This document shows positions 53,118 through 59,272 of a stretch of DNA of 64,000 nt, in pieces (the first letter of the stretch is position 1; each line of letters opens with the position of its first letter). Under the pieces are notes generated by a model. That model was not told the DNA's origin. It was given only the letters and a program-made list of their open reading frames with translations, and searched no databases. Source of the stretch: Flavobacteriales bacterium (GTDB lineage Bacteria; Bacteroidota; Bacteroidia; Flavobacteriales_D; Sanyastnellaceae); assembly GCA_022447625.1 (NCBI GenBank), contig JAKVAX010000009.1, positions 62,001 through 126,000 of the forward strand, in the 5' to 3' direction. Position numbers and translations under genes: made by a program.

Positions 53118-53843
53118 ATGAAGTATTTACTACCCTTAGTATTGCTAGTACTTTCTACCGCTCAACTAACTGCACAGCGTAACTACGATGATCTACTTGA
53201 ATTAGTAGTGGATGAAAAATATGAGCGTTGCCTCCAAAAGTGTTTCAAATACATGGATGGAGAAGACACGAAGAAAGATCCAATGCCATACCTCTACGCG
53301 AGTATGTCATACTATAGAATTCACCAATCAGATGATCCTAAGCTTGAGGAGCGTTTCCCAAAGGCTTTCAAGAACTCTTTGAAGTACTTGGTGAAGCACC
53401 GTAAAAAGGACAAGCAAGATGAGTTCTTTGCTGAGCATCAAGAGTTCATTAGTGAAGTTCGTCTAGAGACGATGCTTGAGGCAGAGCGTGAGGTGGAACA
53501 AGAGAAGTTCACACGTTCGAAAGGACTTTACAAGTACCTCACTCAAATTGATGTGAATGATCCTGGAGCTTGGATGGCACTCGCACATTCATTCTACATG
53601 ATGAAGTCACGTAAAGATGCAGGACTTGCATGGGACGAAGCAAAGAAGATTCTGAATGAGCAAGGTGTTGATCACTTAGCTGAAGAGCAGCTTGAGTTGT
53701 TGAAGCAAACTGTGATTCGCAACGCGGAGATGCTTGACGAACTCGGTGAGCGCGGACAGGCGAAAGAGTGGCTCGAAATGACCCAAGAGTACTTTGCCGA
53801 CGACAAAGAATTTAGCGTGGTTTACCGCACCATCGTGGGGTAA
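53118..53843 (+). CDS. Secreted TPR-like helical protein, unknown
   Basis: The 241-residue protein has a signal peptide (MKYLLPLVLLVLSTAQLTAQ) and an all-helical body with TPR-like pairs: YDDLLELVVDEKYERCLQKCFKYM, PYLYASMSYYRIHQ, then GLYKYLTQIDVNDPGAWMALAHSFYMM and LEMTQEYFADDKEF. Such periplasmic TPR proteins are common in the phylum and act as scaffolds; no specific function can be given. It is monocistronic, with a strong terminator after it. Confidence 0.7.
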   Translation: MKYLLPLVLLVLSTAQLTAQRNYDDLLELVVDEKYERCLQKCFKYMDGEDTKKDPMPYLYASMSYYRIHQSDDPKLEERFPKAFKNSLKYLVKHRKKDKQDEFFAEHQEFISEVRLETMLEAEREVEQEKFTRSKGLYKYLTQIDVNDPGAWMALAHSFYMMKSRKDAGLAWDEAKKILNEQGVDHLAEEQLELLKQTVIRNAEMLDELGERGQAKEWLEMTQEYFADDKEFSVVYRTIVG

Positions 53844-53868: not shown

Positions 53869-53892
53869 AAAGGGGGTGTGTCCCCCTTTTTT
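53869..53892 (+). terminator. Intrinsic terminator before the signalling cluster
   Basis: Stem AAAGGGGG / CCCCCTTT (8 perfect pairs) with a 5-base loop and a T-run. Confidence 0.9.
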
Positions 53893-53933: not shown

Positions 53934-54371
53934 ATGAATGAAAGTGCAGTAAACATCGTCTTGGTTGAAGATAATGCCAACGACGCCGAATTGACCTTGA
54001 TGGCTCTAAATAAAGCAGGACTTGACCATGGGGTCAAAGTCATGCGTGATGGAGCTGAAGCGATTGATTATCTACTCGAATCCGGACATACTCGCGACGA
54101 CGAATTCTCAGCACTGAAATTGATTTACCTCGACCTAAAACTTCCTAAGCGAAGTGGATTTGAGGTGCTTGAACGGATCAAAACCAGTGGAGAATTTATC
54201 GGGATTCCCGTGGTTATTTTGACCTCTTCCGGAATTGAATCCGATGTAGAACAGGCGTACAAACTTGGAGCAAACAGCTACATAGTGAAGCCTATTGATT
54301 ACGCTCAACACGGCAAGGATATTTCTGAAGCCACGAAATATTGGACTACAATCAATCGCTCATGTCGGTAA
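53934..54371 (+). CDS. Single-domain response regulator (Rcp-type receiver)
   Basis: The 145-residue protein is a lone receiver: acidic pair in VEDNANDAEL, phospho-Asp in LIYLDLKLPKRSGFEVL, conserved Thr/Ser in ILTSSG, and Lys in YIVKPIDYAQH. The loop sequence fits the cyanobacterial Rcp1-like group, often paired with light- or redox-sensing kinases. It begins a same-strand run of five signalling genes and its 3' end overlaps the start of the next kinase gene. Confidence 0.9.
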   Translation: MNESAVNIVLVEDNANDAELTLMALNKAGLDHGVKVMRDGAEAIDYLLESGHTRDDEFSALKLIYLDLKLPKRSGFEVLERIKTSGEFIGIPVVILTSSGIESDVEQAYKLGANSYIVKPIDYAQHGKDISEATKYWTTINRSCR

Positions 54372-55918
54372 CTATGGAAACTACGATTCTCAAGCTTGAT
54401 CAGGTGGATCAAGACTTTATTTACGCGGGAAGAGAAGACACCAAAATCAGAATTCTTATTCTAGAAGACTTGGATACGGATGCGCAATTACTTCAACTAC
54501 AGCTGCGCAAGGTGAACCAGGAGAAAGAGATTCTGCACGTCACCAATAAGGAAGACTTTATCAAGGCCTTTGATGAGTACAAGCCGCAAATGATACTCTC
54601 CGATTATGCCCTTCCGCAATTCACTGGAATGGAAGCCCTTCTGTTCGTTCGTGAACGGAATCCTTACATCCCTTTCATCATTTGTACCGGTTCGGTAAAC
54701 GAAGAAACGGCGGTAGCGTGTATCAAGGCAGGTGCAGATGACTATGTCTTGAAAGATTCCATGGGTCGTTTGAGCAGTGCAGTGGAAAACGCTATTCAAG
54801 CGAAAACGAACCTCGTCGAAAAAGAGCGGGCGATTTCCAACCTAGAAAGCAGCGAAGCCAACTTCCGTGCGCTAGCCGAAAATGCACCTGATAATATTTA
54901 CAAGCTTGACCGCAACGGAACCATTCACTATGTGAGTCGATCTGTTGACGGAGTAGAACGTGACCAAGTAATAGGCAAGTCGATCTATGACTTCTTGAGC
55001 GAACCGAATAAAAAACGTCTTGAAGATGCTATGAAAGACGTTTTTAATGATGGTCAAATCGCAGCTATCGATATTGAAGGGAATCCGAACGACCCCGAAT
55101 CGCAGTGGTATTTATGCCGTCTGGCCCCGGTAGTGGCTGACGGACAAATTGATTCCGCGGTATTCATTCCATCAAATATCACTGCCCGTGTTCAGGCCGA
55201 ACGTGAAATGAAGGAATTGAATGAGAAGCTTCAAGCCTTGACCCAACACCTAGAGAACATCCGTGATGAAGAGAAAGAAAAGATTGCGATGGAGATTCAT
55301 GACCAGCTTGGTCAAGAACTGACGGGGAATAAACTTGGACTTTTCTGGATTAAGCAAATACTTGAAAAAGACGAATTAAAAGCAGAAGACAAGGCTGCGG
55401 CTATTGATAAGGTTGACTACCTCGTTGACTTGACTACAACCACCATTCAAACGGTACGTCGTATTGCGCATGAGCTCCGCCCTGTAGTACTTGACAACAT
55501 GGGACTAATAGCTGCGATGGAGTGGCACGTTGACAATTATAACAAACACCATTCTATTCAATGCCGCCTCCATATCGACGTCAATGATGCAATGTTCGAG
55601 AAGGAATTTTCGACTGCTATATATAGGATTATGCAAGAAGGGCTTACAAATATCAACCGACATTCAGAAGCTTCACAGTCTTGGGTTGACTTCCTAATCG
55701 CTGGCGATGAACTCGTATTGGAGATTCGCGATAATGGTAAAGGTCTAGAGATCGATAAAGCCCTGAAATCAAAAAGTCTTGGACTCTTCGGAATGAGAGA
55801 ACGTATTAAAGCCTGGAATGGGCAGTTCGATCTTGAATCTGAAAAAGGAAAGGGCACAACGATACGTTTACAGTTCGATATGGAACATCTGTCAAAATCT
55901 GGAGCAATTATTTTGTAG
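54362..55918 (+). CDS. Sensor histidine kinase, receiver-PAS-HisKA_3-HATPase
   Basis: The roughly 518-residue protein has an N-terminal receiver (about 20-140: ILILEDLDTDAQLL, phospho-Asp in LSDYALPQFTGMEA, Lys in YVLKDSMG), a PAS domain (about 165-280: FRALAENAPDNIYKLDRNGTIHYVS) and a NarX/LiaS-type kinase core: HisKA_3 with MEIHDQLGQELTGNKLGLF, then HATPase with IMQEGLTNINRHS, EIRDNGKGLEI and SLGLFGMRERI. It should phosphorylate NarL-type regulators such as the two that follow. ATG 54362 overlaps the upstream gene by 10 bases; ATG 54374 is an alternative. No membrane segment is visible, so the signal is cytoplasmic or comes through its receiver. Confidence 0.9.
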   Translation: MSVTMETTILKLDQVDQDFIYAGREDTKIRILILEDLDTDAQLLQLQLRKVNQEKEILHVTNKEDFIKAFDEYKPQMILSDYALPQFTGMEALLFVRERNPYIPFIICTGSVNEETAVACIKAGADDYVLKDSMGRLSSAVENAIQAKTNLVEKERAISNLESSEANFRALAENAPDNIYKLDRNGTIHYVSRSVDGVERDQVIGKSIYDFLSEPNKKRLEDAMKDVFNDGQIAAIDIEGNPNDPESQWYLCRLAPVVADGQIDSAVFIPSNITARVQAEREMKELNEKLQALTQHLENIRDEEKEKIAMEIHDQLGQELTGNKLGLFWIKQILEKDELKAEDKAAAIDKVDYLVDLTTTTIQTVRRIAHELRPVVLDNMGLIAAMEWHVDNYNKHHSIQCRLHIDVNDAMFEKEFSTAIYRIMQEGLTNINRHSEASQSWVDFLIAGDELVLEIRDNGKGLEIDKALKSKSLGLFGMRERIKAWNGQFDLESEKGKGTTIRLQFDMEHLSKSGAIIL

Positions 55919-55975
55919 CCTGTGAATTGCTGGCTAATTTGTAATGCTAAAACATCTGAAAAACATCTCTCTCCT

Positions 55976-56611
55976 ATGAACAAAGTTGCCATCTGCGATG
56001 ATCATAAGATAGTCCGGGAAGGACTCAAGCAAATCATCTCCGTATTTAATGACTTCGAAGTCGTCGCCGATGTGGAAAGTGGAGAAGCGCTTTTCCATGT
56101 ACTCCGTAACCACACTCCTGATATTATCATTCTTGATGTCTCTCTCCCAGGAAGAAGCGGTTTGGAAGTATTAAAGCAACTTAAGATCATGAATCCTGAT
56201 ATCAAGGTTCTCGTTCTTAGCATGTATCCGGAAGATCAATTCGCCATTCGCATGCTCAAGGCAGGCGCTTCAGGTTATCTCCACAAAGATTCAGAAGCGG
56301 GGATCTTACTTGATGCCCTAACTAAGATCTCTCGAGGCTGAGAGTATTTGAGCCCAAAGATCACACAACTCCTCTTCCGCGAAATGAATAACGAGGGGAA
56401 TGAACTTCCTCACCAGGCATTGAGTGATCGCGAGTATGAAGTACTTCTATATATAGGAGAAGGAAAATCAATCTCAGAGATTGCCAATCAACTTTCGCTC
56501 AGTGTGAAGACCATCTCAACCTACCGAACACGCATTCTGGAGAAGATGCACCTTGACAACAATTCAGACCTTGTCAAATACATCATGTTGCACGATCTAT
56601 CACAGAGCTAG
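55976..56611 (+). pseudogene. NarL/LuxR-type response regulator interrupted by one TGA
   Basis: The receiver (MNKVAICDDHKIVREGLKQI, phospho-Asp in IIILDVSLPGRSGLE, Lys in YLHKDS) reads to codon 121 and stops at TGA 56339-56341. The same frame continues with EYLSPKITQLLFREMN and a full LuxR helix-turn-helix (LSDREYEVLLYIGEGKSISE, VKTISTYRTRILEKM) to 56611. The downstream paralogue has Gly (in EGGEYLSP) at this point, so GGA to TGA explains the break. Either the gene is inactivated, or the stop is read through, or the base is a sequencing error. As it stands a 121-residue lone receiver would be made. Confidence 0.75.
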
Positions 56612-56612
56612 A

Positions 56613-56702
56613 CTGACAATAGTGTCAGACAAAATACTGCAACATTTTTCAATGTCAGAAACGTCCTACACGGTGTAAAGATTGCATCCTATAAGGCTGA
56701 CA
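56613..56702. promoter_or_regulatory. Cluster of four TGTCAG/CTGACA half-sites
   Basis: CTGACA (56613), TGTCAG (56623), TGTCAG (56653) and CTGACA (56697) lie within 90 bases upstream of the intact response regulator gene. The first two form an inverted repeat with a 4-base spacer. They may be operator sites for a NarL-type regulator (inference). Confidence 0.4.
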
Positions 56703-56714
56703 GTTTGGTGCCAA

Positions 56715-56722
56715 TACATTTG
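56715..56722 (+). promoter_or_regulatory. -7 box TACATTTG of the intact response regulator gene
   Basis: Perfect TAnnTTTG, 29 bases before the ATG and just downstream of the half-site cluster. Confidence 0.5.
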
Positions 56723-56751
56723 GTCAAGAAATCAACCAAAAATTGTTTGCC

Positions 56752-57393
56752 ATGATTGATGTTGTTATTTGTGATGATCACAAGATCGTCAGAGAAGGTC
56801 TAAGTAAGATCATTTCAAATTTCCCTGATATCAAGATCCTTTCGGATGATATCGCTAGCGGTGAAGAACTCCTTCAACGTCTGCGCAAAGAACAACCTGA
56901 CGTAATTGTATTAGATGTCTCACTTCCTGGAAGAAGTGGTCTTGAGGTACTCAAGCAAGTGAAGATCTTCTACCCAGAGATCAAAGTGCTAGTACTAAGT
57001 ATGTATCCTGAAGATCAGTTTGCCATCCGCATGCTGAAGGCAGGTGCGTCTGGTTACCTTCACAAAGACTCCGCTCCAGAAGTATTGATCGATGCGATCC
57101 GTACGGTACAGGAAGGTGGCGAATATCTAAGTCCTGCAATTACGAAGTTGCTCTACCGCGAGATGAACAACAAGAACCAGGACCTCCCGCACAAACAACT
57201 TTCAGATCGCGAATACGAGGTATTCCTAGCGATTGGTGAAGGAAAAGCAAATAATCAGATTGCGAGTCAATTGATGTTGAGCGCTAAGACAATCTCAACC
57301 TACCGCTCACGTATCTTGACAAAGATGAATATGGACAACAACTCCGATATCATCAAGTATATCCTATTGCACAACCTGTTACCTTCTGCGTAA
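56752..57393 (+). CDS. NarL/LuxR-type response regulator
   Basis: The 213-residue protein has a receiver (about 1-120: IDVVICDDHKIVREGLSKI, phospho-Asp in VIVLDVSLPGRSGLE, VLSMYPEDQFAIRMLKAGASG, Lys in YLHKDS) and a LuxR helix-turn-helix (about 145-210: LSDREYEVFLAIGEGKANNQIASQLMLSAKTISTYRSRILTKM). It is an intact tandem paralogue of the broken gene upstream, with near-identical core segments. It is the natural partner of the HisKA_3 kinase at 54362. The ATG at 56752 is preferred to a TTG upstream. Confidence 0.93.
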   Translation: MIDVVICDDHKIVREGLSKIISNFPDIKILSDDIASGEELLQRLRKEQPDVIVLDVSLPGRSGLEVLKQVKIFYPEIKVLVLSMYPEDQFAIRMLKAGASGYLHKDSAPEVLIDAIRTVQEGGEYLSPAITKLLYREMNNKNQDLPHKQLSDREYEVFLAIGEGKANNQIASQLMLSAKTISTYRSRILTKMNMDNNSDIIKYILLHNLLPSA

Positions 57394-57401
57394 TCCTACG
57401 C

Positions 57402-57422
57402 GGAGGGTAACTTCCCTCCTTT
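57402..57422 (+). terminator. Weak hairpin after the response regulator gene
   Basis: GGAGGG and CCCTCC pair around a 6-base loop, followed by only three T. Confidence 0.4.
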
Positions 57423-57505
57423 CCTACAAGCTTGTCGGCTTGTGGACTTCAAAGCTCCCTGTGGTTCTGCAATAGATTTGTAAAGCCATAAAACACCGAA
57501 CGAAA

Positions 57506-59272
57506 GTGACCACACAGGGATATCAACATAACGACGATCTAAGTATTCTTCTTCTTGAAGATTACGCGCTGGATGCAGAGCTAGTCAAACGTCATATCCG
57601 TAAGACACATCCAGATTGGCGTGTAGATCACGTCAAAACCAAGGAAGCATTTGTAGACTACCTTGAAGATCGTCATCCAGACATCGTACTCAGTGATTAT
57701 TCAATGCCACAGTTCACCGGAATGGAAGCTTTCCTCCAGGTTAAAGAACTAGGACTTGAAATTCCATTTATCATCGTCACGGGAGATCTTCCTGAAGAAA
57801 CTGCAATTGAATGTATCAAAGAAGGAATCGATGATTATATCATTAAATCATCACTTCTTCGTCTAGATGTAGCGATTCAGAAAGCGATTCAACGTAAGGC
57901 TTCTGAGATCGCTAAACGCGCTATCGCGGAACAGCTACAAGCCAGTGAGGAGCGATTCAAATCTATCTTCGATCACGCTGGTGTTGCTCTCGTTGAATGC
58001 TCGAGTGCAGTAGAGATCAAACCGCTTCTCAAAGGGAAACTAGAGAATCAGGTGATGAAGAATACCATCAAGAATCTACTTAATACCTTAGTTGTGACTG
58101 CTGGAAATAAAGCCGCAGTCAAACTCTTCGATGCTCCTGACTTCAATGCACTCGTTGATTCTTTCCCTCAATTATTCGAACGTTCAGCAATACGCATTCT
58201 ATTCCAAGCAATTCAGCGATTTAGTGCTGGTTCCACAGCCGTGGAGCAACTCATTCCTGTACGCACTTGGAAAGGGCACAAGCGCTTTGTAAAGACCAAG
58301 GTAGTATGCGATCCTCATCGCCCGAGTTTCTTTACAGCGAGTTTTGTTGACATGACCGATACTGTAGAAGCCGAAAAGCGTACGATCAAAATGACCGAAC
58401 GTCTAGAAGATACAGTGGCTGAGCGTATGTTGGAGCTTTCTCAACTCAACGAAAAGCTTCGGATTGACGCTGAAGAACGTGAAAAGATTACCCGTGTCAT
58501 GCGCGATAACTATATCGCGATGACCGAAAGTATTATCGCTGCGAAACGAATTCAGCAGCTCTTGCTGCCTAGTCATAGTCAAATCGCCAATGGCTTCGCT
58601 GACGCATTTGTGTATATGCGACCGAAAGACATTGTAAGTGGTGACTTCTATTGGTACCATGAAGAAGGAGATGTACGCTGGGTAGCTTGTGTTGACTGTA
58701 CAGGACACGGTGTTCCTGGAGCATTTATGAGTATGATTAGCTCTAAGATGCTGAATCAAGCAGTGATTGAAAACGACATTACAGATCCAGGTCAAGTGTT
58801 GAGCAACTTGAATGAGTATGTAGTCAAAGAGTTGAAGCAACACGATGCCAGCACCATTATCAGCACTGGAATGGACATCTCCCTGTGTAAGTTCGATTAC
58901 AAAAAGATGGAACTTTCATTCTCTGGAGCCTACCAAATCCTCTATGCCAAAGATGAAAACGGACTCCGTACTTATGCTGGAGACCGTCGCTCTCTAGGAG
59001 GTACATATAAGCACGCCGACAAGTCATTCACAGTACATACTATGCCTTTCAAGGAAGGAGATTGTTTCTACATGTCATCTGACGGTTTTGTAGATCAGTT
59101 TGGCGGGTTGAAAGACAAGAAGTTCACTCGCAGACGATTCATTGAATTGCTGAAAAGTGTCGATAGCGAGAACATGTACGATCAAGAAATGGTGATTAAA
59201 AGTGCTTTCCAAGACTGGAAAGGACCTACTGAGCAAATTGATGATATTCTAGTAATGGGTATCCGAACCTAG
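57506..59272 (+). CDS. Receiver-PAS-PP2C (SpoIIE-type) serine/threonine phosphatase
   Basis: The 588-residue protein has a receiver (about 10-130; ILLLEDYALDAELVK, phospho-Asp in LSDYSMPQFTGMEA), a PAS-like middle (about 145-290), a coiled coil (about 290-345) and a PP2C/SpoIIE phosphatase domain (about 350-588): MRPKDIVSGDFYWYH, VACVDCTGHGVPGAFMSMI, MDISLCKFD, and FYMSSDGFVDQFGG. Its receiver closely resembles that of the kinase at 54362. Such proteins usually dephosphorylate anti-sigma-factor antagonists or similar switches; no partner lies in the window. GTG start at 57506. An antisense 13-mer lies at 57919. Confidence 0.9.
   Translation: MTTQGYQHNDDLSILLLEDYALDAELVKRHIRKTHPDWRVDHVKTKEAFVDYLEDRHPDIVLSDYSMPQFTGMEAFLQVKELGLEIPFIIVTGDLPEETAIECIKEGIDDYIIKSSLLRLDVAIQKAIQRKASEIAKRAIAEQLQASEERFKSIFDHAGVALVECSSAVEIKPLLKGKLENQVMKNTIKNLLNTLVVTAGNKAAVKLFDAPDFNALVDSFPQLFERSAIRILFQAIQRFSAGSTAVEQLIPVRTWKGHKRFVKTKVVCDPHRPSFFTASFVDMTDTVEAEKRTIKMTERLEDTVAERMLELSQLNEKLRIDAEEREKITRVMRDNYIAMTESIIAAKRIQQLLLPSHSQIANGFADAFVYMRPKDIVSGDFYWYHEEGDVRWVACVDCTGHGVPGAFMSMISSKMLNQAVIENDITDPGQVLSNLNEYVVKELKQHDASTIISTGMDISLCKFDYKKMELSFSGAYQILYAKDENGLRTYAGDRRSLGGTYKHADKSFTVHTMPFKEGDCFYMSSDGFVDQFGGLKDKKFTRRRFIELLKSVDSENMYDQEMVIKSAFQDWKGPTEQIDDILVMGIRT
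57919..57931 (-). repeat. Dispersed 13-mer TTCCGCGATAGCG (minus strand)
   Basis: Exact to the consensus on the minus strand, in the PP2C phosphatase gene and antisense (Ala-Ile-Ala-Glu). Confidence 0.75.

Follow-up and report, generated by a model that had tools for sequence, protein, structure and literature searches.

Here we describe a signalling locus at positions 53,934 to 59,272 of a 64,000-nucleotide stretch of Flavobacteriales DNA (contig JAKVAX010000009.1; the whole stretch is called the window below), which encodes a lone receiver, a receiver-PAS-HisKA_3 kinase, two NarL-type regulators (NarL1 and NarL2) and a receiver-bearing PP2C/SpoIIE phosphatase. We propose that this locus probably lies at the centre of a GacA-like network run by the NarL pair. 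The proposal is built around a predicted promoter with fixed geometry 5' of NarL2, a new finding that the original prediction for this DNA, which stressed coupling between kinase and phosphatase, had overlooked. Transcriptional output via the putative NarL operator appears to us more telling than that coupling. The five same-strand genes named in the prediction are all present, with domains recognized by Pfam, and the locus is laid out as follows.

53934..54371, + strand: lone receiver (CheY-like), 145 amino acids, Response_reg at 3e-16
54362..55918, + strand: cytosolic receiver-PAS-HisKA_3-HATPase kinase (Pfam Response_reg, PAS_4, HisKA_3, HATPase)
55976..56611, + strand: NarL1 regulator (Pfam Response_reg and GerE), with an in-frame TGA at 56339-56341
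56654..56722, + strand: predicted NarL2 operator-promoter, made up of a GTCAGA-N4-TCCTAC palindrome, a TCCTAT half-site and a -7 box, TACATTTG
56752..57393, + strand: NarL2 regulator (receiver-GerE; Pfam Response_reg-GerE)
57506..59272, + strand: phosphatase with receiver, PAS-like region, coiled coil and PP2C/SpoIIE domain, 588 amino acids (Pfam Response_reg-SpoIIE)

The gap between NarL1 and NarL2 holds a GTAGGA-N4-TCCTAC palindrome, whose left half reads GTCAGA in the window, followed, 23 bp from the first TCCTAC, by a second half-site, TCCTAT. A further 28 bp on comes TAnnTTTG, beginning 35-51 nt before the NarL2 start codon; this is the -7 box described for the primary sigma factor of flavobacteria (PMC9723704). 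Each of the 12 genomes with a NarL pair, namely the 11 that carry the complete cluster (hereafter carriers) and genome G003, has the operator 5' of NarL2; its three downstream elements are exact in 10 of the 11 carriers, and the operators of G018 and G003 show spacing shifts plus a change or two. NarL2 upstream regions fit with 0-5 mismatches, while among 300 shuffles the best fit had 6 mismatches, reached once, and all others had at least 8. Within the window, 56654-56722 is the sole operator site. The best NCBIfam model for NarL2 is UvrY/SirA/GacA (NF007018, 169.3 bits), the recognition helices of NarL1 and NarL2 are nearly the same, and in 14 example sites the operators match the published GacA box palindrome, TGTAAG-N6-CTTACA (PMC8523701, PMC3171408), at 8-11 of its 12 fixed positions, a resemblance of sequence alone.

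The motif recurs elsewhere in the carrier genomes. We searched 12 genomes allowing up to 3 mismatches, 114 genomes of the family allowing up to 2, and, with the full four-element pattern, 30 genomes allowing up to 3, using the reversed pattern as control. The full pattern gave 29 matches in 10 of the 11 carriers, of which the NarL2 promoter itself accounts for 10 and other places for 19, as against two matches, both in one genome, among 19 non-carriers, and a single control match across the 30 genomes. A shorter pattern gave 61 matches versus 20 for the control in the 11 carriers, and 42 versus 108 in the 103 non-carriers; this enrichment in carriers has a Fisher p of 7e-10 after removal of the 10 own sites, a value to be read with the relatedness of the genomes, which are not independent, in mind. 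The left half-site, absent from the first two patterns, nevertheless stood in the expected position with no more than 2 mismatches at 12 of 20 sites, counted by eye and including some orthologous pairs.

The list of predicted targets consists of the sites found and is incomplete; one target, operon A, was followed genome by genome. This operon encodes a lone receiver, a HisKA kinase and a receiver-PAS/GAF-kinase, and its small kinase is confined, among the 114 genomes, to exactly the 11 carriers. An operator precedes it in 10 of 10 readable cases, eight clear and two degenerate (G002 and G018, 6-7 mismatches); in G048 the upstream region is cut by the contig end. Further sites lie 5' of lone receivers (G046:C90, G030:C40 and G006:C32) and, by eye, of a receiver start at G006:C278, where the contig ends after the receiver start in what we take to be sequencing-adapter sequence. 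A small conserved protein of 109-127 amino acids is preceded by a site in G000, G001, G046, G030, G031, G047 and G048; we considered a histidine phosphotransfer (HPt) identity for it and rejected this, as it has neither Pfam support nor a conserved His in the expected stretch. Other sites stand 5' of an adhesin-like surface protein (G000, G001, G047, G048), a ClC channel (G030, G031) and a propeller-type hybrid kinase (G000, G001). At the porP-gldK promoter, G030 and G031 match less well, differing from the short pattern by 1-2 mismatches, genera g1 and g4 have partial half-sites with shifted spacing, and no recognizable operator was seen there in the three non-carriers compared, which tentatively suggests a link to the type IX secretion system.

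A further group of predicted targets consists of probable small RNAs, present in three copies on one contig in G030 and two copies in G031. In these genomes, some 90-140 nt downstream of the promoter contain the core ATAGTAGTTAAGTATT (in a varied form in one copy) as well as GGTTAA repeats and end in a strong terminator, and most copies have no open reading frame for more than 200 nt; in one G031 copy, an open reading frame call starts inside the candidate RNA. At G031:C230 a glycosyltransferase had initially been listed as the target, and the candidate small RNA that lies 5' of it has taken its place. In G001 and in the genome of the window (C45 near 182,775), a site that departs from the short pattern by 2 mismatches precedes a terminator-ended candidate RNA with a partly similar core. 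No Rfam family matches the small-RNA loci, which gave one sub-threshold chance match, and the window has no Rfam match at gathering score. Loci L297 (G030:C50), L196 and L193 are examples of these multi-copy, terminator-ended GGTTAA candidates under the operator. Separately, at L283 (G000:C75) and L285 (G001), a weaker operator match is followed by a terminator-ended stretch and then by a small protein that looks HPt-like by eye.

The survey for the same gene set that the original prediction had called for finds the full order in 11 of the 114 genomes of the family. These 11, which span six of 21 genera, are also the ones with a full-length phosphatase orthologue, and no further full-length orthologue was detected among 399 genomes of the order (E 1e-70). 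All 11 carriers have the genes in one order (TPR-like gene, lone receiver, kinase, NarL1, NarL2, phosphatase), and the flanks are conserved as well, with a helicase and then a TonB-type gene on one side (the latter lies outside the stretch fetched for G001) and GNAT and glycosyltransferase genes on the other. G003 has the TPR-like gene, kinase, NarL1 and NarL2, without the lone receiver or the phosphatase; the phosphatase is therefore separable from the kinase and NarL pair. Five loci in genus g20 combine the TPR-like gene, a PAS-less kinase, one NarL regulator and a phosphatase with no detectable receiver, so that the TPR-like gene adjoins the cluster in all 11 carriers and likewise in G003 and g20. 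By eye, the N-terminus of the g20 phosphatase (L096, L097, L116) resembles a decayed receiver without the phospho-acceptor Asp. NarL2 is 86-100% identical across the 11 carriers; outside the closest species, its identity is 86-91% and that of the phosphatase 49-59%.

We suggest a mechanism in which NarL1 would be the two-component partner of the receiver-PAS-HisKA_3 kinase, their genes overlapping or standing no more than 59 bp apart, with NarL2 a probable duplicate of NarL1 under its own promoter. Phosphorylated NarL1, NarL2 or both would bind the GacA-box-like palindrome and downstream half-site just 5' of the Bacteroidota -7 box, with activation a more likely effect than repression. Predicted targets would be NarL2 itself (feedback), further receivers and kinases, the small conserved protein, surface and adhesin genes, and probable small RNAs; phosphotransfer from the kinase and transcription of these RNAs are presumed steps. 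The receiver-PP2C phosphatase would add a Ser/Thr-phosphatase arm as a second output, set by the same phosphodonor or by one related to it. A more ambitious version, which we offer as speculation and consider rather doubtful, is a Bacteroidota Gac/Rsm-like switch, in which a duplicated, self-activating NarL drives multi-copy GGTTAA small RNAs, lone receivers and kinases, and surface and secretion genes, so that one operator rewires the phospho-relay network while the receiver-gated phosphatase forms a parallel arm. To our knowledge, two-component regulons in this part of Flavobacteriales have hardly been mapped, and we know of no substrates of its SpoIIE phosphatases. Literature searches, judged from their listings, found nothing on the locus or its regulon. 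A DNA site with fixed spacing to a -7 box predicts regulator-gene pairs, candidate small RNAs included, and the target list suggests a signalling cluster that controls other signalling genes. If true, this would be a case of a GacA-box-like operator feeding small RNAs far outside the gammaproteobacteria.

Several observations weigh against the network proposal. The patterns were partly derived from the sites they then found, and strict matches are few per genome (1-6; none in G018). G003 has the NarL pair and yet no strict match anywhere, its NarL2 site being shifted; G006 has two sites, with NarL2 not detected in an 80% complete genome; and g20, whose single NarL has a very similar recognition helix, yielded no sites. 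The NarL2 score of 169.3 bits lies below the cut-off of 280 for the GacA model NF007018, and the genome encodes further LuxR-type regulators that may be the ones to bind the motif. Moreover, the carriers form one clade relative to three tested non-carriers in a GldK tree, and the co-occurrence may therefore be one inheritance event. The conserved but unrelated flanking genes (helicase, TonB-type, GNAT and glycosyltransferase) and the genome's many candidates for receiver or LuxR-type proteins would agree with an ordinary two-component cluster kept by general synteny, with the motif belonging to another LuxR-type regulator. We consider this unlikely, since the best-conserved sites stand 5' of NarL2 itself, genomes with the NarL pair show an excess of the motif, and it resembles the box of the very family against which NarL2 scores best.

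The in-frame TGA of NarL1 (start 55976) raises a different question about the window's genome. The codon, at 56339-56341 between the receiver and the GerE helix–turn–helix, stands in the genome assembly just as in the window sequence, and NarL1 is intact in the other 10 carriers. We set aside recoding of the TGA in view of these 10 intact orthologues. The locus may instead be decaying in this strain, the TGA being a true nonsense mutation that leaves NarL2 alone to carry the output; the TGA in the assembly and a further amino-acid change at a well conserved position of this NarL1 favor decay, although an assembly or sequencing error is possible and the remaining cluster genes are open. We regard such decay as a serious possibility, if somewhat short of probable, and it is compatible with a NarL-run network in the other genomes. 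As a separate observation, the two closest genomes differ in NarL2 by 14 synonymous and 0 amino-acid changes and in NarL1 by 36 and 3, so that change in NarL2 is unusually low even at synonymous sites.

The original prediction had also held that kinase and phosphatase have closely related N-terminal receivers, quoting motifs that are indeed present. This is borne out by 43% identity over 150 residues between the two receiver regions, compared with 24-30% for other receivers of the genome, and by a tree of 50 receivers in which the kinase and phosphatase clades are each monophyletic (support 99/97 and 99/93) and meet, along with another kinase receiver, L123, in a group with 95/74 support. The 11 orthologues show no variation in Asp, Thr and Lys of the receivers, in the PP2C aspartates or, in the kinase, in the His (H320) and N437; the phosphoacceptor and other active-site residues of the lone receiver are likewise invariant. 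Matches to HisKA_3 (9e-10) and HATPase_c (5e-12) in Pfam place the kinase among the HisKA_3 kinases. A recent common ancestor of the two receivers is supported, and a shared phosphodonor is therefore plausible. The predicted receiver-PAS-SpoIIE architecture of the phosphatase holds for the receiver and SpoIIE domains; the PAS domain has no Pfam match, and at about residues 155-283 the strand and helix order of a predicted model looks PAS-like by eye.

A partner switch, in which one phosphodonor sets kinase and receiver-phosphatase and the latter acts on a STAS antagonist, would agree with the sister receivers and the intact receiver and PP2C sites, with SiaA having the closest phosphatase domain (196 bits; PDB 6k4e), and with the presence in the genome of two stand-alone STAS proteins (120 and 115 amino acids) and one RsbW-like ATPase (138 amino acids). 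These possible targets are unlinked, however, lying on other contigs among housekeeping genes, and the genome has other SpoIIE phosphatases that might act on them; the phosphatase is also absent in G003. The search for a STAS target suggested in the original prediction thus came up empty at the locus, with no linked STAS or anti-sigma gene and with STAS and stand-alone HATPase_c_2 proteins confined to other contigs, and Pfam found no STAS-like or SiaC-like partner among the small neighbors of three other SpoIIE genes of this genome and one in G030. On balance we think a partner switch somewhat improbable.

Two features lie immediately upstream of the cluster.

53118..53843, + strand: TPR-like gene, 241 amino acids, adjoining the cluster, probably as its own transcription unit
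53870..53892, + strand: intrinsic terminator (hairpin plus T-run) in the gap that separates the TPR-like gene from the lone receiver

Inspected by eye, all 11 genomes show the terminator hairpin in this gap. The kinase reading frame is open from 54341, and its ATG at 54362 overlaps the end of the lone receiver gene; the lone receiver, kinase and NarL1 genes overlap or are spaced by at most 59 bp, whereas gaps of 101-195 bp and 20-124 bp precede NarL2 and the phosphatase across the 11 genomes. The conserved terminator and the separate gaps suggest that the cluster forms about four transcription units. The TPR-like protein has a signal-peptide-like N-terminus followed by an alpha-solenoid and is probably exported; its AlphaFold model (predicted local distance difference test score 87) is all-helical, with TPR proteins as best Foldseek matches at low template-modelling score. 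Pfam gives no match and profile comparison gives a weak TPR/SycD match, and we therefore make no assignment beyond TPR-like.

A kinase coupled with a receiver-PP2C phosphatase is known in kind from two published systems, RsfS-RsfR of Mycobacterium smegmatis, a histidine kinase with a receiver-PP2C response regulator (PMC10950880), and HptB-HsbR-HsbA of Pseudomonas aeruginosa, in which the PP2C output belongs to a His-Asp relay (PMC6482189). Pfam domains and invariant residues likewise point to a receiver-PP2C protein of the RsfR/HsbR/RssB type here, and Foldseek matches its model to SiaA and Pseudomonas RssB. As in RsfS-RsfR, a kinase accompanies a receiver-PP2C phosphatase (PMC10950880); there, RsfB is the antagonist shown as target, whereas here no antagonist is linked, and a NarL pair and a lone receiver are added. 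As with HsbR, a receiver is coupled to a PP2C output, but the anti-sigma kinase domain of HsbR and its antagonist HsbA have no counterpart here (PMC6482189). SiaA of SiaABC (PMC7647112) has the closest PP2C domain by NCBIfam and by fold (PDB 6k4e), with 196 bits to NF038263 over the PP2C part only, below the cut-off of 700; unlike in SiaA, the N-terminal half here is a receiver plus a PAS-like region. The kinase and phosphatase receivers also match the Leptospira LvrB model, at 97 and 86 bits, far below its cut-off of 500 and in the receiver part only.

The likeness to GacS/GacA (BarA/UvrY) lies in a NarL-type regulator closest to the UvrY/SirA/GacA model, a palindromic operator and candidate small RNAs as predicted targets. 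GacS has the layout of a hybrid kinase, whereas the adjacent kinase here is a cytosolic receiver-PAS-HisKA_3 protein. The locus further differs from GacS/GacA in its two paralogous regulators, in the third half-site and Bacteroidota -7 box of its predicted operator-promoter, and in the GGTTAA repeats of its candidate small RNAs.

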